NCBI GenBank assembly: GCA_001599975.1
Contig: BCIO01000002.1
Span: forward strand, 1,426,001 to 1,490,000
Direction: 5' to 3'
Origin: Cystobasidiopsis lactophilus
Taxonomy: Eukaryota; Basidiomycota; Agaricostilbomycetes; Agaricostilbales; Chionosphaeraceae
DNA: 64,000 nucleotides
Shown here one piece after another: positions 6,101 through 57,039 of the stretch. Positions within the stretch are counted from its first letter, which is position 1; each line of letters begins with the position of its first letter. Under the pieces are notes generated by a model. It was not told the DNA's origin. It made no database searches and saw only the letters and a program-made list of their open reading frames with translations. The translations under genes were made by a program, and so were the position numbers.

Positions 6101-7424
6101 CAGTCCTCTCACCCGGCGTCACACAGACGACCGTCTGCATTCACCTGAGCGCCCACATCTCAACAGGCGCCTCACAGCGGTCTCACCACTTCTGCGAGCG
6201 CACTCTGGCTCGCGCTTGTCATCCGAGAGCATGCTCGGCTCGCTATCCCTCGCGTCCAAGTCGACCACCTCTCTTCTCGACCTCAATGATGAACGTAGAG
6301 CGAGCCTTTATGCTCGTCGGACGATGGCAGACAAGCACGTGCCGTCTGACCTGAACGACTTGCTGGGCACCTCGCCCGGTAGCCGTAGGCGGCGCCCATC
6401 GGACGCCAGCAGCATACGCTCCCAGCCGCTTCCAGAGTTGTCTGAAGGCCCCGTCTTATCCAAGTCGGCGGAGGAGCCTAACGACTTCGGGACGATGCGT
6501 CCTGCGCGGCGCCCGACCCGCGGAAGCATCGATAGCAGCATGCTCTTCGACGCGGCCAGCTTGCACAGCTCCGTCAACAGCGATCGGGACTCCTTTGATC
6601 TACACAGCGAGCTGCTCATTCGACCGCAAATCGTTTTGAAGGCCACCAACAGCAGCAGCCGCATGAACCGGCAGTCGCTGTCAGTGGACGGTTCGGACGT
6701 GGTGCTGCCCAGTCGCCCGATTCGTCAGCTGGGGGTTCAGGGCAGCGACATGCGTCGCAATGGGAGCGAACCCGGTGCCAAACGCAACAGCGTGGACTCT
6801 TGGAGCAGCTTGTTTGGCCGGTCGCCTGCGGCAGTGTCGGATCGGCCCTCGTCCATGGCCTCGCCGCGGTCTTCTTCGCCTGCAGACAACAGCACAGAAG
6901 AGGATTGGTTGGGGTGGACACGGCGGCGGCTGTCCAGCGTCACGTCGCTGGGATCGTTCTCGTCACTGGACGGCAGCCATCAGCACACCCGCCGAGGCTC
7001 GGACGCACCCTTGAACAGCGAGAAGTCGGATCTCCACTCCAAGCAGCTGAACCGCACCTATTCACTTGACGATACCGACTTGTCGACTCGAAGAGAGGCC
7101 ATGCCGCACGCGCTCATGCGCAGCGGCAATCGCCCTCGCCCACTCTCTTCCATCTCTATCACCTCCTCTGGCTCGGAACACTCGGTCACTTCGACACCGC
7201 CAGTTGTTTCTCCTGTCTTCCAGACCCCAAGCACGAATCCTCCGCGGCGCCGCCACCGGTCAGGAAGGCTTCGACGAGATCTGCTGGCCAGCGCCACCTC
7301 GGCGACTTTGCCGCCGCATATCGACTTCGCTACCGCTTCCACCATGAGCCCTCCAGCATTCCGGCCTGTCCATTCTCCTATAAGGGAGACATTCAATCCC
7401 GTCGAGCCCATCGGCTTGCCTTGA
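3152..7424 (+). CDS. VPS9-domain protein, putative Rab5-type GEF
   Basis: A large, mostly disordered serine-rich protein with a central VPS9 domain. The start at 3152 opens a Ser/Pro/Asp-rich leader. The intron from about 3514 joins it to a long low-complexity exon with many RRxS-like phosphosites. The VPS9 core spans roughly 5160-6060 over several exons. It includes FVYVKGFEKYTAQRIRRGIL, then DELLPLLAFTIVQSNLQNLE and LLFYIKNFTQSSLGAEY. The acidic residue before LLPLL and the following hydrophobic helix match the catalytic segment of Rabex-5/Vps9 proteins, which load GTP on Rab5/Vps21 at endosomes. No CUE domain is visible, so it is closer to Muk1-like VPS9 proteins than to Vps9 itself. The C-terminal 400 residues are Ser/Arg-rich. 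Stop at 7424. Confidence 0.85.
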
Positions 7425-7811
7425 AGCCTAATCTGTCGCCGTTTATCTTCCTATTTCGACTTCGCCTTTTTGCCGCTTCCCCGTCCACCCACTTTCCGAC
7501 TTTGTGAAGAAGTTTCGTCTTTCTTTCCTGCGGGCCACTTCAAGTGACATGTACAATCGACGTCCAAATCACCCATTCACTCAGATATCCTAGAGGTGGC
7601 GACTTTCCTCTCCCACTGCTTCAGCCTTTTCTCTCCTCCACGATATACCACGACCTTACACGCCGCAATCTTGCAGAGCAAACATGTAGATTAGAACATT
7701 AATTCAGGGCTTGGGCAAATGCAGTTCATCTCCTCCTCGGCACAAATATCATGGGTCGCACTACTTGGCGTTCAGCATGGTCAATTGCACGCGCTGGGAA
7801 GTCTATGGCAA
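7425..7811. other. Convergent 3' intergenic region
   Basis: About 390 bases between two stops facing each other. It is pyrimidine-rich on the plus strand after the VPS9-domain gene and probably holds both 3' untranslated regions. I see no gene or repeat. Confidence 0.6.
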
Positions 7812-45074: not shown

Positions 45075-48000
45075 ATGGCTCAACAGCCTCAGCGCCCGCC
45101 GCAGCAGCCGATGCGATATGGCCAAGAGTCGTATGCGCACACTCCGCCTGGCCAGCCGGACAACCCGTTCGGGCAACGGGGTGCCTTCAACGATGGCCAG
45201 AGCGAAGATGAATACTCGCTTAAGAACGACAACTACTCGCGTGAGTGCTGCTTCCCGCCCGGCGCCTAGAGGGATCGCCCAGCTTATGCCGAGGGCGCAT
45301 GAAAAACAGGCGATGTCAAGGGCGGCGCTGACAAGGGCGTCTACATGCGCGGCGGTTACGGTGCACCCTCGTCGGAGTCGCTCATGCAGAACGCCAGGGG
45401 CTACTCGGGCGCCTCGACTCCCATCGACGCGACTTTGCACTCGAGGCTTCGGGAGACGTACCCAGCGTGGGCCACGGACCGCAACATCCCTCTCTCCAAG
45501 GAGGAGATTGAAGACATCTTTGTCGACCTGGCCAACAAGTTTGGCTTCCAGCGCGACTCGATGCGCAACATGTACGACCACTTTATGATCCAGCTCGACT
45601 CCCGCGCCTCTCGCATGGCCCCCAACCAGGCCCTGCTCACCCTGCACGCCGACTACATTGGCGGCGAGCACGCCAACTACCGCAAATGGTACTTTGCCGC
45701 CCAGCTCGACCTCGACGACGCGATCGGCTCGGCGCAGAGCATGGGCCCAGCCGCCCGCCTCGCTCGCCGGGCCACCCGCAGCAAGAAGCAAGGGCCCGTT
45801 TCGCAAGGCGAGCGCAAAGTCGAGTCGGCCTCCCAGCGCTGGCGCCAGGCGATGGCCAACATGTCCCCCTACGACCGCGTCCGCCAGATCGCTCTCTACC
45901 TCCTGTGCTGGGGTGAGGCTGCCCAGGTCCGCTTCACGCCTGAGTGCCTGTGCTTCATCTTCAAGTGCGCCGACGACTACTACCGGTCGCCCGAGTGCCA
46001 GAACCGCATGGAGCCGGTGCCTGAGGGCCTCTACCTCCGCGCCGTCATCCGCCCCCTCTACCGCTTCCTGCGCGACCAGGGCTACGAAGTGCAGGACGGT
46101 GTCTTCTTGCTTAGACGGGAAAGGGACCACGACAAGGTGATCGGCTACGACGACGTGAACCAGCTGTTTTGGTATCCAGAGGGCATCAACCGCATTGTGC
46201 TTAACGACAAGGTGCGTTCGCCCTGCTCCGTTCTCGTTGATGATGGCTGATAGTCCCGATTGCTCCCAGACACGACTGGTGGACGTCCCGCCCGCTCAGC
46301 GGTTCATGAAGTTCGACAAGATCGAATGGCACCGCGCCTTTTTCAAGACCTATTACGAATCGAGGTCCTTCTTCCATTTGCTCGTCAACTTCAACCGCAT
46401 TTGGGTCCTCCACATCTCCGTCTTCTGGTACTACACGGCTTACAACTCGGCTAGCATCTACACCCTGCCCAACGAAAAGAACCCTGCCCACGCTGCGCAG
46501 TGGTCCGCAGTCGCCCTTGGTGGCGGCATCTCCTCCATCATCATGATTGCTGCAACACTGGCCGAGTTCAACTACGTCCCCACAACTTGGAACAACACCT
46601 CGCATTTGATGCGTCGTCTCTTGTTCCTCCTTGTGGTCCTCGCTCTCACTATCGGTCCCTCGGTCTACATCTTTGGCGTGGCGCACCCCACGCCTGAAGA
46701 CGATGCAGCTAACCCGTGGAGTGTACCTGTCATCATCGGCATCGTCCAGTTTGCCATCTCGCTCAGTGCCACAATCTTGTTCTCGGTCGTGCCCTCGGGC
46801 CGCTTGTTTGGCGACCGCGTGGCTGGCAAGGCTCGGAAATACCTCGCCAGCCAAACGTTCACCGCTTCCTACCCCAAGCTTTCCAACCGCGCGCGCTGGG
46901 CGTCTGTTCTGCTCTGGGTCTTGGTCTTTGGCTGCAAGTTCACCGAATCCTACTTCTTCCTCACCCTGTCCTTCAAGAACCCCGTGAGGGCCATGGTCGG
47001 CATGCGCATCCAGAACTGCAACGACAAGCTGTTCGGCAACAGCCTCTGCCGATATCAAGCCAACTTCACCCTGGCGATGATGTTCTTCATGGATCTCGTC
47101 CTCTTCTTCCTCGACACCTTCCTCTGGTACGTCATCTGGAACACTGTCATGTCCATCGCCCGCTCCTTCTCGCTGGGCCTATCCATCTGGACGCCGTGGA
47201 AAGACATCTACACTCGGTAAGTGTCCCTGTTTCTTTGGTCCAGCCTCCTCTGATGCCCATGCGATGATACAGGCTGCCCAAGCGCATCTACGCCAAGCTT
47301 CTGGCCACGTCGGAAATGGAAATCAAGTACAAGCCCAAGGTGTTGGTGTCGCAAATCTGGAACGCGATCATTATTTCGATGTACCGAGAGCACCTGGTGC
47401 GCTTTTTGCCCTCAAATAATGCCGAGCAAGTGCTGATGGTCGAGCAGCTCTCAATCGACCATGTTCAACGGCTGCTTTACCACCAGGTGCCTTCCGAGAA
47501 CGACGGCAAGCGCACACTGAGGGCGCCGGTCTTCTTCATCAGCCAAGACGACCGCGGCATCAAGGCCGAGTTCTTCCCTCACGGCTCCGAAGCTGAACGC
47601 CGCGTCTCGTTCTTCGCCCAGTCCTTGACCACTCCCATTCCGGAGCCGCTGCCGGTCGACGCCATGCCCACCTTCACCGTGCTCACGCCCCACTACTCGG
47701 AGAAGATCCTCCTTTCCCTGCGCGAAATCATTCGCGAAGAGGATCAGAACACGCGCGTCACTTTGCTCGAATACCTCAAGCAGCTGCACCCCATTGAGTG
47801 GGCCAACTTTGTGCGCGACACTAAGATCTTGGCCGAAGAGAGCGCCGTCTTCCCGTCCTACCCCTTTGCGTCTGGCACCGGCAACGACGAGAAGAATGCC
47901 AAGGCGGCAGACGACATCCCGTTCTACACCATTGGTTTCAAATCGGCCGCACCTGAATTCACTCTGCGAACGCGCATTTGGGCCTCGCTTCGCGCGCAGA

Positions 48001-51000
48001 CTCTTTACCGCACCGTGTCCGGCTTCATGAACTACAGCAAGGCCATCAAGCTCCTTTACCGCGTCGAAAACCCGGAAGTCGTCCAAATGTTTGGCGGCAA
48101 CACGGAACGCTTGGAGCGTGAGCTCGAACGCCAGGCCCGCCGCAAATTCCGCTTCGTCATCTCGATGCAACGCTACTCCAAATTCAGCAAGGACGAAATT
48201 GAGAATACCGAGTTCTTGCTGCGCGCCTACCCGGACCTCAACATCGCTTACCTGGACGAGGAGCGCCCACGCAAGGAGGGCGGCGAGCCCCGCATCTTCT
48301 CGGCGCTCATTGACGGCCACTCCGAGATCATGCCTGATGGACGCCGCCGACCCAAGTTCAGGATCGAATTGCCCGGCAACCCCATTCTCGGCGACGGCAA
48401 GTCGGACAACCAGAACCACGCCATCGTCTTCTATCGCGGCGAGTACTTGCAGCTGATCGATGCCAACCAGGACAACGTGCGAGGTCTCTTATTTGCCCTG
48501 CTGCTTGACGCTGAACCCATTCCTTGCAGTATCTCGAAGAGTGCCTCAAAATCCGCAATGTCCTCGGCGAGTTCGAAGAGTTCCACCTGTCCAACCAGAA
48601 CCCATACTCGGCCTCCGGGAAGAATGATTTCTCGAGTGACCCAGTCGCCATTGTGGGCGCTCGAGAATACATCTTCTCGGAGAACATCGGCATCCTCGGC
48701 GACGTGGCTGCAGGCAAGGAACAGACCTTCGGCACGCTCCTGGCTCGTTCGCTCAGCGCTATCGGCGGCAAATTGCACTACGGCCATCCGGATTTCCTCA
48801 ACGCCATTTTCATGACCACGCGCGGTGGTGTGTCGAAGGCGCAAAAGGGGCTGCACTTGAACGAGGACATTTTTGCGGGCATGAATGCTTTCGGAAGAGG
48901 CGGTCGTATTAAGCATACCGAATACTATCAGTGTGGCAAGGTGAGTTGGTTCCTCTTCAGCTTCTCAAAATCCTGGCTCATACGATTTGGGTAGGGACGA
49001 GATCTTGGTTTCGGCACCATCTTGAACTTCCAGACCAAGATTGGCACCGGTATGGGCGAGCAGATGCTCTCAAGAGAGTACTACTACCTCGGCACCCAGC
49101 TCCCCATGGACCGCTTCCTCACTTTTTACTACGGACACCCCGGCTTCCACATCAACAACATCCTCGTCATCTTCTCGGTCAAGGTCTTCACATTCGTCTT
49201 GGTCTTCTTGGGCACCTTGAACGCCAACGTCTCGATCTGCCAATACGACTCATCCGGCAACTACCTCGGCACGCCTCCCGGCTGCTACAATCTGATCCCG
49301 GTGTACGACTGGATCAAGCGCTGCATCATCTCGGTCTTTATCGTCTTTTTCATCGCCTTCTTGCCCTTGGTAGGTCGCTCGACTATTTGCGTGGTGTTGG
49401 TCTAACTGTAAGGGCCCGCCAGTTCTTGCAAGAACTGACCGAGCGTGGTGTCATCCGAGCCGTGATCCGTCTTGGAAAGCATTTCCTGTCGCTCTCGCCC
49501 ATCTTCGAAGTCTTCTCCACTCAGATTCAGGCCCACTCGATCCTCAGCAACTTGACATTTGGCGGAGCCCGGTACATCGCCACCGGCCGTGGTTTTGCCA
49601 CCTCCCGCATCTCCTTCGCCATCCTGTACTCGCGCTTTGCTGGTCCTTCGATCTATATGGGCATGCGCTTGCTGGTTTTGCTGCTTTACGTGACCATGAC
49701 GCTTTGGTGCGTCGTTTCTCTCGTTGGTAGTGCGACCCTGCTTACCCTCATGCAGGCTTCCGCACTTGATTTATTTCTGGGCCTCCATTCTTGGCCTCTG
49801 TCTGGCACCCTTCATTTTCAACCCGCATCAGGTGGGTGGCTTGAGGTCGTTGCCCGCATCCTGCTTACCCGGCGATGCCACAGTTCTCCTTTGGTGACTT
49901 TGTCATTGACTACCGCGAGACACTGCGCTGGTTGTCGAGGGGTAACTCGAGGACTCACGCCAACAGCTGGATCGGCTACTGCCGCTTGACCAGGACGAGA
50001 ATCACCGGTTTCAAGAAGAAGAAGCTCGGTCACCCATCAGAGAAGCTGTCAACCGACGTACCCAGAGCTGGGTGGCGGACGGTGCTTCTTTCAGAAGTAC
50101 TGATCCCACTGTGCTTGGCCGTCTGCTTCGTCATCGCTTACATGTTCGCCAAATCGCGTCAAGAGAAGTCGGTCAACGCTCTGCTCCGCATCGCTATCAT
50201 CTCTTTTGGGCCAATCCTGCTCAACATGATCGTCCTGATTACCCTCTTCTTCATCTCGCTGACCGCCGGCCCGGCCTTGTCAGGTTGCTGCGAGAAGTTT
50301 GCAAGCATCATGGCGGCCATCGCGCACATGTTGTCGGTCATCGGTCTGGTGGCCTTCTTCGAACTTCTGTGGTTCATCGAGGCGTGGGAGATCGCCAACG
50401 CTGTCTTGGGCATGATTGCAGTCATTGCCGTCCAACGCTGCTTCTTCAAGGTGGGTATCTTTTGTTGCTTCCTTTCCCGCGGGCCACCATGAAGTTCTGG
50501 CTATTTTTCATGATAGATTCTCATCGCCATCTTCTTAACGAGAGAGTTCAAGCACGACCAGACCAACAGGGCATGGTGGTCCGGGAAGTGGTGCGCTTTG
50601 CCCCCTCTTTCCTATTGTACCAATCCTCAATCCTGTGGCGCTAGGTACGGCATTGGCATGGGATCCAGCGCATTCTCGCAACCGCCGCGAGAGTTCGTGG
50701 TCAAGATTGTCGAGACATCGCTTTTCGCGGCCGACTTTTTGACGTGAGTCTCTGCTTGCCTTATTTTTATGCATCCAACTGACCACCTACACTTTTAGCA
50801 TGCACTTCCTGCTGTTCTTGGTGTCGGTGAGCCACTTTTCGAGCCGTCTTTGGTCAGAAAGACCTTCCGCTGACCGNTCGTTCAGATCCCGCTGCTCATC
50901 CCGTTCATCGACCGAGCTCATTCGACCATGCTGTTCTGGCTGTCACCGTGAGCTTTCTCACTTGTTGACCTCGTGCAGGTCGCAGAATTTGACCTTGGAC

Positions 51001-51195
51001 GCCGCAAACAGGTCCAAGCAAANCCGCCCGCCGGTGTACAGCTTCCGGCAGATCGCCCAGCGGCGGCGCATCATCGCCAAGTACTCGGTGCTCTACGTGC
51101 TCACGCTGGCCTTCTTCGCCGCCTTGATCGTCCTGCCAGTCGTCTTCCGCAAGAACATCGACGAGACCAACTGCTCCATCTGCAACTCGATCTAA
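45075..51195 (+). CDS. FKS1: 1,3-beta-glucan synthase catalytic subunit FKS1
   Basis: The plasma-membrane enzyme (GT48) that makes the main wall glucan from UDP-glucose under Rho1 control. My model has 14 exons totalling 1,804 codons including the stop: 45075-45240, 45310-46211, 46270-47216, 47273-48476, 48530-48940, 48995-49369, 49423-49706, 49756-49831, 49884-50450, 50517-50590, 50645-50743, 50799-50826, 50886-50947, 50979-51195. Every phase closes. N-terminal motifs include [20 protein letters not shown] and [20 protein letters not shown]. The cytosolic catalytic part has [34 protein letters not shown] and [20 protein letters not shown]. Two clusters of membrane helices flank it. Hot spot 1 reads FLTLSFKNP and hot spot 2 starts DWIKRC. 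Undefined bases at 50877 (intron) and 51023 (codon ANC) affect the last exons. Length is normal. Confidence 0.96.
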
Positions 51196-51439
51196 AGCCC
51201 GATCTTCCTCGCCGCCACTACCTTCTTGGCACCTTCGCCACTCACTTGTGGCAATCGCAAGGGTCGACCTACTTCTTCGTCTTGGTTGCTCAAGGTCGCG
51301 AGGTCTCATCTCTCTCGCCATCAAAACGGACACTTTGCTCCTACCACATCACATTCATTGGCTTTTGTCCATTAGAGGCCGCTTTCCCCTTTCATATCTC
51401 TCCACATCCATGTAATTGATGACCCTTTCAAGTTCCAAT
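50799..51439 (+). repeat. Direct repeat copy A: 3' end of FKS1
   Basis: 641 bases that recur at 54481-55121 with no indel (constant offset 3,682). Differences seen are G/A at 50821 and N/T at 51023; both copies show N at the equivalent site 50877. The repeat begins exactly at the first base of FKS1 exon 12 and ends about 244 bases after the stop codon. Confidence 0.95.
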
Positions 51440-51633
51440 CACGCGGTGGCGAATAAGCTCGGCTGGGGCGGGTCAAGCAGGGTTGACCCCGACCTGCGCC
51501 GCGCTCGGGTTGAACGAATCGTTTTTCGATTTCTTCTCGATATCAGCTCCTCCTGAGATCATAGCAGCCGTCCGAAGGCGCTTGCCCGCTCCCATCAAGT
51601 CGATTCACTCTGAGTCGCCTCCGTCGGTCGACA

Positions 51634-52624
51634 ATGTCGTCTTCCAAGCCCACCCTGATTTTCATCCCTGGAGCTTGGCACAAGCCCTCGTGCTACGACA
51701 AGCTGATTGCCATCCTCGATTCGCAATACCATCTGAAGTGCCTGAAAGTGACGCTTGCTTCGACGTCCGACAACCGCGACGCCACATTTTTGGACGATCT
51801 GACCAACGCCCGCCGAGTCATCGAAGGCGAGATTACTCAAGGACGCGACTGCGTAGTAATCGCACACTCTTATGGCGGGATGGTCGGCAACAGCGCCATC
51901 AAGGGGTTTGCTCGATCTGCTGCGACTCCGTCGACCTCTGGGACCTGCATTGGCTTGATTCTCATTGCGTCGGGATTCACTTTGACTGGTAAGCTGGGCT
52001 CCTGTAATCCAAGTATCTTGTCTGAGTCAAGCTCTTCTAGGCGTGGCCTTTATGGATCCACTGTTCGGACGGCCACCCCCGGCTTGGAAAGCCAACTGGG
52101 AGACCGGCTTCGCAGAGCTCGTCGTTTCACCAATCGAAGTCTTCTACCACGATGTGCCGGCCGATGACGCGGCGCTGGCCGTTGCGCAACTGACCAACCA
52201 AAGCCTGAAAGCGCTGTTCGAGGGCGGTGAACATGCGTACGCAGGATGGCAAGAGGTGCCAGCCTGGTACATTGGCACTGTCGAGGACCGAGGCCTGCCT
52301 GTTGCCGTTCAGCGCATGACCGTGGGCGTGGCAAGGCAGCTCGGTGGCAACGTCGAGCATCGCGAGCTGCAGACCAGCCATTCGCCTTTTCTCAGCAAGC
52401 CGGGCCTGGTGGCGGAAATTGTTGCCGAGGCGGTCGCTTCGTTCACTGGCGAAGGCGTCAATAGTGCTGAAAAGAACGACGTGGTCACGCCGGCAGTCAA
52501 GCTATTCCACCCCGGGACCTGGTTCCGATTCGGCCTGCCATTGGCCTTTGGACGGTTTCTCGGCTGCGGCTTCTTGCTTTATGGAGGTGTTAGCCGATTG
52601 TTCAGGGCTGTGTTGCGACGCTGA
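51634..52624 (+). CDS. Alpha/beta hydrolase
   Basis: It begins MSSSKPTLIFIPGAWHKPSC, with the oxyanion-hole region IPGAWH. The nucleophile elbow is VVIAHSYGGMVG (Ser), and the family histidine is in ELQTSHSPFLSKPGLVAEIV; the acid lies between. This is the EstC/pyrethroid-hydrolase-like subgroup that acts on small esters or lactones. An intron at about 51989-52041 joins GFTLTG to VAFMDPLFG. A C-terminal hydrophobic segment (FRFGLPLAFGRFLGCGFLLY GG) may anchor it in a membrane. The gene lies between the two copies of the FKS1 repeat. The substrate is unknown. Confidence 0.85.
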
Positions 52625-53388
52625 GCAACCTTGTAAAGCTCACGGTCGAGCTGTGGCATCCTTATCTTGAATCCCTGGATTATCAACTGGACTGGTCGTT
52701 CGACTCGCCCAACCGATCTTCGGGGCCAATGCCTACACTGAGGTCTGCTGCTTTGTTTGGCCATGCTCGAGCTTGTTCGTGTTTGCTTCTTGTTCCTGAC
52801 AGCTCCGGTGCGATTCGATTTCTCGCTGTCCGCGCTTCGGCCGCCCTAACCAAACTTTCACTTCCCGCAACAACGCCTTGTACCAGACTGAGCAGACAAC
52901 AAGGGAACGACTGTTCATTACTGTGTCGAAGATCTCTGACGTTTTGCCCTCTGGCCTCGTTGGACCGGCTTGATGAGCTTGACAACATTGCGCGGCACGA
53001 CTTTTTCTGCCGTACCTTCACAACTAGAGGTATTGTGGCTAAGTAGTCTGCGCCGGATTGGAGCCGACACGATTCCAAATTGCCGTGCGCAGAATCGCGA
53101 CGGACAACTTCTTTCCGCGGAGCGCGGAACGGAATGCGGACTGAACCTCTTGCCCTGCAACCACGACTAGTTTTTTGGGCCGGTGTGAGTAACATTTTGT
53201 TCTCCTACCAGACCAGGCCTTGACTCATAGGCTCGTGCGGCAGATCTCCACCCTTCATTCTGTCCTCGATTCATCACGCTTAGAAGCTTGTCAGTCCTCC
53301 TTAAAGGCCTTCTAGGCATGCCTGCTAAAGGATAACAAGGTGCTAAAGACTTACGCTTGGTTGTTTAGACCTTCGCTGCTCTCACGAA
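52625..53388. other. Intergenic region
   Basis: About 760 bases. A minus-strand open frame at 52683-53195 (170 codons) is rich in Arg and Ser with no recognised motif, and I judge it chance. Nothing else is supported. Confidence 0.45.
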
Positions 53389-53937
53389 ATGTCGTCGCCA
53401 CCGTTGCCTGCAACCTTCGCCGAAATGTCCGACGCCGATATCAAGAGCTACCTTCAAGCCCGCACCTATCTGCGCCAGGGAAATGCTCTCCTCGCCGCGG
53501 TCATCGGTGGTGCCTTCCAGGCGGGTTTTGGTGTGCTCAACCAATTGCAAGTCTCTGGTCCCTCTGGGGATCAACACTGGGCCAGCCTGGTCACTGTGTG
53601 CACCACTCTTGGTGCGATGATTACGGCGTACGAAGCCCACCACTTTCACCAATCTACCCTAGCATACCTGGATCTCCGAGAGAAAGCTCGAGTGGACTTG
53701 CGCGGCGATCTGGCTCAACTCTTGGACCTATTGCCTCTCTTGGGCAACACTCGCCGGTCAGGAACATCAGACCCTGAACAGCAGTGCGAGGCCTACCGCA
53801 TCAGGCTGGTCGAGTGGCGCGTGCTCTTCACCTGCCTGCCGAAGGTAGAAACCGAAGCGATGGTCCGACTTCGCCCCGACGGAATTCTATTCCTTACAAA
53901 CAGACTTTCAACCTTTGCTTACGGTCTTTCGAGTTGA
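53389..53937 (+). CDS. Small membrane protein of unknown function
   Basis: An intronless frame of 182 codons: MSSPPLPATFAEMSDADIKS, then YLQARTYLRQGNALLAAVIG. Two hydrophobic segments (NALLAAVIGGAFQAGFGVLN and HWASLVTVCTTLGAMITAYE) fit a membrane hairpin. The C-terminal half is soluble, with ARVDLRGDLAQLLDLLPLLG and a Trp/Arg-rich end. It has no signal peptide. Related small four-exon or intronless DUF proteins occur in basidiomycetes, but I cannot name this one. It lies between the two FKS1 repeat copies. Confidence 0.5.
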   Translation: MSSPPLPATFAEMSDADIKSYLQARTYLRQGNALLAAVIGGAFQAGFGVLNQLQVSGPSGDQHWASLVTVCTTLGAMITAYEAHHFHQSTLAYLDLREKARVDLRGDLAQLLDLLPLLGNTRRSGTSDPEQQCEAYRIRLVEWRVLFTCLPKVETEAMVRLRPDGILFLTNRLSTFAYGLSS

Positions 53938-54480
53938 GAGTTGCGACATTGAAACAGCGAGGCCTGCTGCGTCCGACCTTCTTGGTTGGTGTGGAACACC
54001 TACCTTGAGTAGTACGGCGACATTCATCGCCCTTATACGGGATTCGGAGCTCACTTCCCATCTCGATAGACCGTTAGCGTCCAGCCTGACGGGCACTGGG
54101 TGCTTTCTTGCTCCCGATCGCTTTCTGTTCTCTAAGTGCCGTTCTTTTTCCTGCTCTGCTCTATCTTGCCCTTTGTCCCTATCCTAAATTGAATTCCTTG
54201 CTTCCTCTTCATTTAAATTCTTTGTTGCGTTTGTGGTGCTGCTTCTAGCTGAGCGCTTCGGTCTATGTTTCGAAAATTTGGCACTGGTTGAAAACGCCAT
54301 CCACACGACTTCCCCTCCCCATCTTATCCAAACATGGAGAATAGCTCATTTTTTGTGCATCTTTTTAGTGGCACACATTGGCCAGCGGGGACAATGACTC
54401 GATTCGAGCACACACTTGGCGAGACGAGTGAGCGACCTTCCTTCCCGGACTGCTTCAGAGAGCTCCCAGAGCATCCTTAT
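53938..54480. other. Intergenic region before the FKS1 fragment
   Basis: 540 bases, rich in T and C between 54120 and 54320. No gene is supported. There is no FKS1 coding sequence here, so the downstream copy lacks its upstream exons. Confidence 0.5.
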
Positions 54481-54877
54481 CATGCACTTCCTGCTGTTCT
54501 TGATGTCGGTGAGCCACTTTTCGAGCCGTCTTTGGTCAGAAAGACCTTCCGCTGACCGNTCGTTCAGATCCCGCTGCTCATCCCGTTCATCGACCGAGCT
54601 CATTCGACCATGCTGTTCTGGCTGTCACCGTGAGCTTTCTCACTTGTTGACCTCGTGCAGGTCGCAGAATTTGACCTTGGACGCCGCAAACAGGTCCAAG
54701 CAAATCCGCCCGCCGGTGTACAGCTTCCGGCAGATCGCCCAGCGGCGGCGCATCATCGCCAAGTACTCGGTGCTCTACGTGCTCACGCTGGCCTTCTTCG
54801 CCGCCTTGATCGTCCTGCCAGTCGTCTTCCGCAAGAACATCGACGAGACCAACTGCTCCATCTGCAACTCGATCTAA
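54481..54877 (+). pseudogene. FKS1 C-terminal fragment without upstream exons
   Basis: The last three FKS1 exons with their introns (equivalent to 50799-51195), ending in [20 protein letters not shown] and [16 protein letters not shown]. Nothing resembling earlier FKS1 exons lies upstream, so it cannot encode a synthase. Retained introns show that it arose from DNA, not from a spliced transcript. It is either a true segmental copy or an assembly duplicate. Confidence 0.85.
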
Positions 54878-55121
54878 AGCCCGATCTTCCTCGCCGCCAC
54901 TACCTTCTTGGCACCTTCGCCACTCACTTGTGGCAATCGCAAGGGTCGACCTACTTCTTCGTCTTGGTTGCTCAAGGTCGCGAGGTCTCATCTCTCTCGC
55001 CATCAAAACGGACACTTTGCTCCTACCACATCACATTCATTGGCTTTTGTCCATTAGAGGCCGCTTTCCCCTTTCATATCTCTCCACATCCATGTAATTG
55101 ATGACCCTTTCAAGTTCCAAT
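54481..55121 (+). repeat. Direct repeat copy B: 3' end of FKS1
   Basis: The second copy of the 641-base repeat. After its end the two flanks stay weakly alike for about 25 bases (GTGGCGA-ATAA-GCTCGG-TGG pattern) and then diverge. Has T where copy A has N at 51023. Confidence 0.95.
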
Positions 55122-55211
55122 GACAATGTGGCGAGATAAAGGCTCGGTTGGAACTTGACCCTCTCGAGAAGACAGGAATATCAAAATGCTATTCATACAA
55201 TGAGTCTAAGT

Positions 55212-57039
55212 CTAGGAAGTAGCAGCCGCAGCAGCCTTCTTCTTCTTGCCTCCCGACTTCTTGGCCGATACCGCGGGCGTGACGAGGGCGTCCTTGCTCT
55301 GGTTGGCGGCCAGCGTGACGGCGGCGTCCTCCTCCTCCTTCTTGACCTGGTGGTAGAGGGCCTCCTTGGCCGCGTCGTCCTCCTGCTTCTGGACCATGCC
55401 GGCCAAGAGCTGGTTGATGTCTGGCCGGAGGATGAACTTTTTCGTCGCCTGGCCCATGATGTACAAGCCCGGCTCGTGCTTGGTGAAGCCGTACTGGTCG
55501 TCGATGGGCTCGGTGACTTGCATGCCGATCTCTTGCAAGAACGAAGTCGGCGCTCCCGGCAGCACCTTTTGTCGGCATCTTCAGTTTTGTTTCTCAAGAG
55601 AGAAAAAAGGGAAAGCGTTGGGACTCACATCGTACCGCAGCTTGTCCTTGCCCTTTCCCAAGACCACCTTGACCTGCCCGTTCTGGTATACCTTGAGCTT
55701 GCCGATGACGCCGTCGAAGGCGAGCTCGCTCAGGTCCCTCGTCTCGCGGCCGCCGCTCTTGCCCCACCCCTGCCACTTGCCAGGCACATAAGCGGGCACT
55801 TTAGCCTTGTTGACGTCGGCCGGCTTGACGTCCTTCTTCTCGTCCTCGTCGATGTCCATGAGGTCGATGGGCTGGGTAGGGGGCAGGGCGTTGGGCTTGA
55901 ACCTGGGGAAGAGCCTGGGGAACTGGAAGACGTAGAGCTGCTCCTGGTCCGGCGGGGGCTCGAGGAAGCCGGCCTCGACCCGCTCGTTCTTGACGACCAG
56001 AGGCTTGGGCTTCTCCCCTTCGTCCAGGTCAGGCGAGGTGGGGCGGGAGAGGGAGTTGGAGAGGGTGGCGCGGGCCAACAGGCTGGACTCTGCCTCTTCA
56101 AAGTCGGGGTCTTCTTTGATCTTGGGAATGGCCGAGGTCGAGCGGGAGTCGACGAGGATGGGCTCGACGGCGGAGAGCATCTGCTCCTGCACCTCGCCCA
56201 GCACCTGCCCCCGGTCTTTGGGCAGGGTCAAAGGGGCCATGGGGTGTTCTAGCCGGATGTCGCACAGGTCAGAGGTGGCCAGCTTGCCCTTGGACAGGGC
56301 GACGGACGCGTCCTCGTCGGCGTCCGGCCCGAGGTCGTCTTCGTCGGAGGAAGGGTAGAACAGCTGGTCGCCAATCTTGACCGCCGCCCCGTCGTCCTTC
56401 CCACTTGTCCCCGATTTGGAGGCTCCAGAAGCAGAACCGCCGCCGCCGCCACCGCTGGCTCGGGCGAGCTTGGCCTTTTCTGTGAAAGTCCCTCGCAATT
56501 TAAGACCAAAAGGGGGGAAGCAAAGACAGAGTGTGTTCCACTCACCTGCAGAAGGCGCGGCGCCATAAGCGAACACGCCGGAAGCGGTCTGCTCTTGCTG
56601 CACCCGACCTCGACCCCTGCCCCGGCCTCTTGGTTGGCCCAAATCAGCATTCCCATTGTCCTGTCCAAACCCTTAGTTAAGCAACAACACGAGATGCCTT
56701 GGTAGAATGGGACGAACCAAAGACAAGCTTCACAGCGAACGGCTCATTGAGCACTTGAAATAATTTGTAAATGAAGAACGCTCACTCTTCCAGCTTGGGC
56801 TTGCGCCTGACCATGGACGGCGTGAACTTCATCGCCGGCTTGTCCTTCCTCGTGTAGTCCGACTTGCGCAACAACGCGGCCACCGATGAACTCGAACTCG
56901 AAGCAGACGAGGGCCCAGCAGCGACGGGGGCGACCGAGCCAAACCTGGCCGCCGCTGCTGCTGTTGTTGGCGTGTCTGTTGTAGATGTGCTGGGCAGGGG
57001 AGAGCCTCGCCCTCGGCCTCGACCCCGAGAAGGCTGCAT
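55212..57039 (-). CDS. RPC53: RNA polymerase III subunit RPC4 (RPC53)
   Basis: Rpc53 forms a TFIIF-like pair with Rpc37 and acts in Pol III termination and reinitiation. The start at 57039 gives MQPSRGRGRGRGSPLPSTST; a basic segment (DYTRKDKPAMKFTPSMVRRK) follows, typical of Rpc4 N-termini. A second GR-rich exon (GQPRGRGRGRGRVQQEQTAS) leads to an acidic middle part. The conserved C-terminal domain has PLTLPKDRGQ, LYVFQFPRLFPRFKPNALPP, FDGVIGKLKVYQNGQVKVVL, and after an intron VLPGAPTSFLQEIGMQVTEP and FILRPDINQLLAGM, the family signature. A Lys/Ala-rich tail ends at 55212. The intron between 56786 and about 56670 does not join in phase in my reading, so that junction is uncertain. Confidence 0.9.

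Follow-up and report, generated by a model that had tools for sequence, protein, structure and literature searches.

The window analysed here is a 64,000-nt stretch of contig C2 (C2:1426001-1490000) from a genome of 22,136,282 bases in 8 contigs, and comparisons were made within this one genome. It contains a 1,3-beta-glucan synthase gene, FKS1, whose last three exons occur twice, 3 kb apart. The features discussed below are listed by window position and strand.

45075-51195, plus strand: FKS1, 1,3-beta-glucan synthase; complete, 14 exons, 1,792 aa
46698-50642, plus strand: part of FKS1 duplicated outside the window, at C2:1652737-1656680, with 97.1% identity; residual likeness to about 50830
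50799-51439, plus strand: repeat copy A; FKS1 exons 12-14 with the two introns between them (12 and 13), then 244 nt past the stop
51440-51466, plus strand: right flank of copy A; weak likeness to 55122-55151 (anchored score 25)
51440-54480, plus strand: segment X, 3,041 nt; its only match in the genome is itself
51634-52624, plus strand: alpha/beta hydrolase gene, 312 aa, one intron at 51989-52040; Abhydrolase_6, PF12697, E 2.4e-21
53389-53937, plus strand: 182-aa open reading frame (ORF) without a Pfam match
54481-55121, plus strand: repeat copy B, the FKS1 3' stub; splice sites intact, 90-codon frame starting at an exon 12 ATG
55122-55151, plus strand: right flank of copy B; weakly resembles the beginning of segment X
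55209-57039, minus strand: RNA polymerase III subunit RPC4, PF05132; convergent with the FKS1 stub

The FKS1 model has GT/AG at every intron and a single open frame, matches PF02364, and its C terminus aligns to solved Fks1 chains; one residue is unread because of an N at 51023. RPC4 was recognised by PF05132 matches in its larger exon (E 5.5e-11) and its last exon (E 5.1e-4, under the curated cut-off). The sequence after copy B, which holds RPC4, matches only itself in the genome.

Realignment returned the duplication as the earlier note had described it, ungapped over 641 bases with one clear substitution: 50799-51439 matches 54481-55121 with one substitution (G at 50821, A at 54503), one N opposite a T (51023 and 54705) and one N shared by both copies (50877 and 54559). 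A gapped self-BLAST alignment extended the pair to 50795-51466 and 54477-55151 at 98.4% identity, and this was the sole repeat pair within the window at E<=1e-3. Across the whole 22.1-Mb genome, the 641-nt sequence is present at two places only. The open frame of copy B (90 codons) aligns to residues 1750-1824 of the solved yeast Fks1 (E 5.4e-19).

The two edges of the repeat differ in character. Copy A starts at the first base of exon 12 in the complete 14-exon model, in agreement with the earlier reading that the copy begins there and keeps its introns. The four bases ahead of the copies, TTAG and TTAT, agree at three positions, so the coincidence with the exon edge may be due to chance. To the left, we found no likeness beyond the repeat, the score there being reached by 337 of 1,000 random pairs. 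To the right, the weak likeness previously noticed past the sharp end (27 versus 30 nt) was borne out: its score was equalled in 8 of 2,000 random genomic comparisons (5 of 1,000 random pairs, and 3 of 1,000 comparisons in which one real flank was kept). Likeness beyond the right edge thus exceeds chance, if not overwhelmingly.

Segment X, between the copies, carries the alpha/beta hydrolase that had been recognised there from the sequence and that the Abhydrolase_6 match supports. The hydrolase has no second match anywhere in the genome. A paralogue of the 182-aa ORF, 32% identical and likewise without a Pfam match, lies at C1:5121072-5121545 (L013); we rejected a paired paralogue of the two genes at C1:5.12 Mb, because the hydrolase is absent there (best tblastn E 0.22) and elsewhere. 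A bacterial origin of the hydrolase was also rejected, as no relative was confirmed in prokaryote genomes (0 of 49 pattern stretches, in a search that detects close relatives only), and plasmid records gave no match. X held no remnant of FKS1 coding sequence (51440-54480, best tblastn E 5.0), and a decayed tandem FKS1 within it was rejected because this interval shows no FKS1 likeness and X matches only itself.

A partial FKS1 body lies on the same contig, 172 kb past copy B, at C2:1652737-1656680 (L014:2737-6680). A family search of the genome found 11 PF02364 matches, confined to FKS1 and to C2:1.653-1.656 Mb. Aligned with window positions 46698-50642, the body is 97.1% identical (110 mismatches and 3 gaps in 3,946 columns) and keeps its introns. 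It is without the first 1.6 kb of the gene, exon 11 and the 3' end, and it has a single-base indel in exon 4; no second copy of the first third of FKS1 was found. Past the loss of exon 11, likeness resumes through intron 11 into exon 12 with a score of 48, which none of 1,000 random segments reached (maximum 44). An 11-mer at window positions 50801-50811 and at 54483 is found again at L014:6723. Together with the exon 12 likeness, this shared 11-mer indicates that the end of the body and the start of copy B lie no more than about 35 nt apart, in exon 12. With break points uniform over 6.4 kb, such a coincidence would occur by chance in about 1% of cases, a figure that rests on a single pair of break points, one of them the fuzzy end of the body. 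Beyond that end, 0 of 6 comparisons with the rest of the repeat or with X exceeded the 95th percentile of scores from 100 random segments, and the same was true of 0 of 6 comparisons for the left flank of the body, where the neighbouring 2,736 nt match only themselves.

The surroundings of the body include a second truncated gene copy. C2:1658148-1661025 (L040:2979-5856), 1.4 kb to the right, repeats C1:3640316-3643220 (L041:1501-4405), part of an RRM gene, at 93.6% over 2,916 columns. In this copy pS (0.09-0.18) exceeds pN (0.02-0.035) across three reading frames; two stop changes occur in these frames, and part of their length may be intron. The 1.65-Mb spot is thus a mosaic of two truncated gene copies of similar divergence.

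Comparing the body with FKS1, we counted 74 synonymous and 17 nonsynonymous changes (pS 9.1%, pN 0.63%), with 6 of the 17 nonsynonymous changes lying within 40 nt beside the exon 4 indel. With provisional exon limits, 20 of 434 intron sites and 91 of 3,509 exon sites differ. Since most differences are synonymous, the body probably belonged to a functional gene until recently; it would either have evolved mostly as a working gene and been disabled recently, or have come from a related lineage. Divergence is uneven along its length: 20 differences fall in the last 196 nt, the longest identical run is 410 nt (48983-49392, p 3e-4), and the dispersion of 3.0 was reached in 0 of 10,000 permutations. 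Gene conversion is the usual cause of such unevenness, and uneven selection could account for part of it.

The repeat pair is far more alike than the body. Differing sites number 1 of 639 in the repeat and 111 of 3,943 in the body (p 1.3e-6), and counting both N positions as differences gives 3 of 641 (p 5.6e-5). At the divergence of the body, copy B would be expected to carry about 18 differences, versus the 1 seen (at most 3). The 641-nt pair is therefore too alike for the age of the body, so copy B is either recent or converted. The positions of the differences favour conversion: the single substitution lies within 23 nt of the left end, and the flanks past 51439 and 55121 look diverged but related (matched by 8 of 2,000 random comparisons), whereas the left flank adds no support. 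If stub and body share an origin, as we infer, the repeat is a tract far above its surrounding duplicate in similarity, as in interlocus gene conversion. As in duplicated unprocessed pseudogenes, the body is truncated and keeps its introns, and copy B is without exons 1-11.

We favour the reading, at a probability of roughly one half, that the repeat pair goes back to a true and older duplication whose copies gene conversion has kept alike. A former second FKS1, several kilobases long and with roughly one synonymous site in ten different from FKS1, would have been broken within exon 12 by a rearrangement. Its body would now lie at C2:1652737 to about 1656750, and its 3' end would be copy B, now ahead of RPC4 and 3 kb behind FKS1. 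In that position copy B and the 3' end of FKS1 are closely spaced direct repeats, which would set the stage for gene conversion between them; conversion from about 50822 to 51439 would then have erased nearly all differences, leaving older ones at 54503 and past 55121. The common origin of the two fragments, conversion as the cause of near-identity and this order of events are what we infer from the comparison. Of the readings put forward earlier, conversion over an older duplicate is thus the one now favoured, on account of the older, unevenly diverged body and the contrast between 1/639 and 111/3,943; a recent segmental duplication or single-crossover event and a misjoin are less likely.

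Copy B could instead be a recent and independent templated duplication, such as break repair that copied 641 nt, unrelated to the body. We regard this as somewhat unlikely. An identity of 99.8% that spans introns and 3' flank would be expected of it, as would a sharp left edge with no older likeness, and local direct repeats of 136-1,560 nt at 74-89% identity occur in 4 of the 20 10-kb loci fetched. However, the break point of copy B coincides with the end of the body, likeness extends beyond the right edge, and the differences are located at the edges. Partial duplication is not rare in this genome, as gauged from smaller queries and the 20 fetched loci (17 of which were arbitrary picks), and none of the local repeats found was near-identical. 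The largest is a 1.56-kb direct repeat of 84% identity on the small contig C7 (L031:4189-5726 and 6110-7641); smaller ones lie in L016, L020 and L021. Two other modes of duplication were rejected: a processed (retro) copy, since copy B retains introns 12 and 13 and has no run of A after 55121, and a simple tandem duplication, since X occurs once and the sequence downstream of copy B is RPC4, which matches only itself.

An assembly artefact, in which the FKS1 3' end was placed twice through a misjoin or a mixture of two haplotypes, appears improbable. The window has only three Ns, at 50877, 51023 and 54559, all in the repeat and placed as the earlier note had them, one at a matching site in both copies and a second in copy A. 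This amounts to 3 in 1,282 nt of repeat versus 1 in the 258,718 nt counted outside it (the remainder of the window plus 196,000 nt from 20 loci), suggesting that the assembler was unsure there; at the Ns, it was probably impossible to assign reads to one copy or the other. Yet the one other N found (L018:1438) is in single-copy sequence, so Ns mark more than repeats alone, and those in the repeat do not by themselves establish an artefact. Also at odds with an artefact, the flanks of the copies differ and yet seem related past the right edge, the left junction of copy B adjoins single-copy sequence, and the body at 1.65 Mb has diverged and lies in a different sequence context. It is highly improbable that copy B is a short working gene under selection, encoding a putative 90-aa protein with two transmembrane-like Fks1 stretches: the ATG start, splice sites and frame are kept, but the match is just as close in the introns and beyond the stop codon, which means that selection on coding sequence does not explain the likeness of the copies. 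The truncated RRM gene copy at the 1.65-Mb spot led us to consider a Helitron- or transposon-like capture as well; the low pN in both the FKS1 and RRM copies fits former working copies better.

Within the duplication-and-conversion reading, an unlikely but specific version involves a circle. A circle carrying the 3' end of the second FKS1 together with its downstream neighbours, X, would have left the 1.65-Mb site and integrated into the 3' end of FKS1 through one homologous crossover. Its insertion would produce the order repeat-X-repeat before RPC4 and leave the donor, the second FKS1, cut off in exon 12; likeness comparison within this genome places the end of the donor-like body at the start of copy B. 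This model explains why the body is truncated, why X is single-copy and why the right flanks resemble each other, as well as the 54480/54481 junction, and it still needs conversion of the repeat. Because direct repeats would make such an insertion reversible, some strains may carry X behind an intact FKS1 while others lack X and still have FKS1 intact. If true, the circle version would be a clear-cut natural example of a gene end captured and then reinserted by homologous recombination in a fungal nuclear genome.

On the favoured reading, recombination between the direct repeats could delete X and leave an intact FKS1 beside RPC4. For annotators, the two extra FKS1 fragments could be miscalled as FKS paralogues, and the 97% body copy in particular will probably be mistaken for a second FKS gene. 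More generally, the locus illustrates how what remains of an older gene copy may look like a near-perfect local repeat and readily pass for a new duplication or an assembly error.

A titles-level search found no literature on this locus, and the events at the repeat are of known kinds. In fungal mitochondrial atp6, mobile elements swap the C terminus, so that a foreign 3' gene end and intervening DNA come before the old 3' end. Here, too, a 3' gene end and intervening DNA precede another 3' end, but FKS1 is nuclear and no homing endonuclease was recognised in X, which has the hydrolase and an ORF without a Pfam match. Integration of extrachromosomal circular DNA in yeasts, as Galeote et al. 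2011 (PMC3053389) describe it for wine strains, involves nonhomologous recombination and circular permutation. A moved circle would likewise give repeat-unique-repeat and a truncated donor site; unlike the nonhomologous process described there, the insertion of a putative circle at FKS1 would be homologous. With partial duplicates and duplicated pseudogenes homogenised by conversion, an instance of concerted evolution, the locus shares close direct repeats, near-identity across introns, what look like older differences at the edges and uneven divergence along a longer paralogue. Unlike the usual converted duplicates, the FKS1 duplicate seems to be divided between two sites of one contig, with both pieces breaking off in the same exon.
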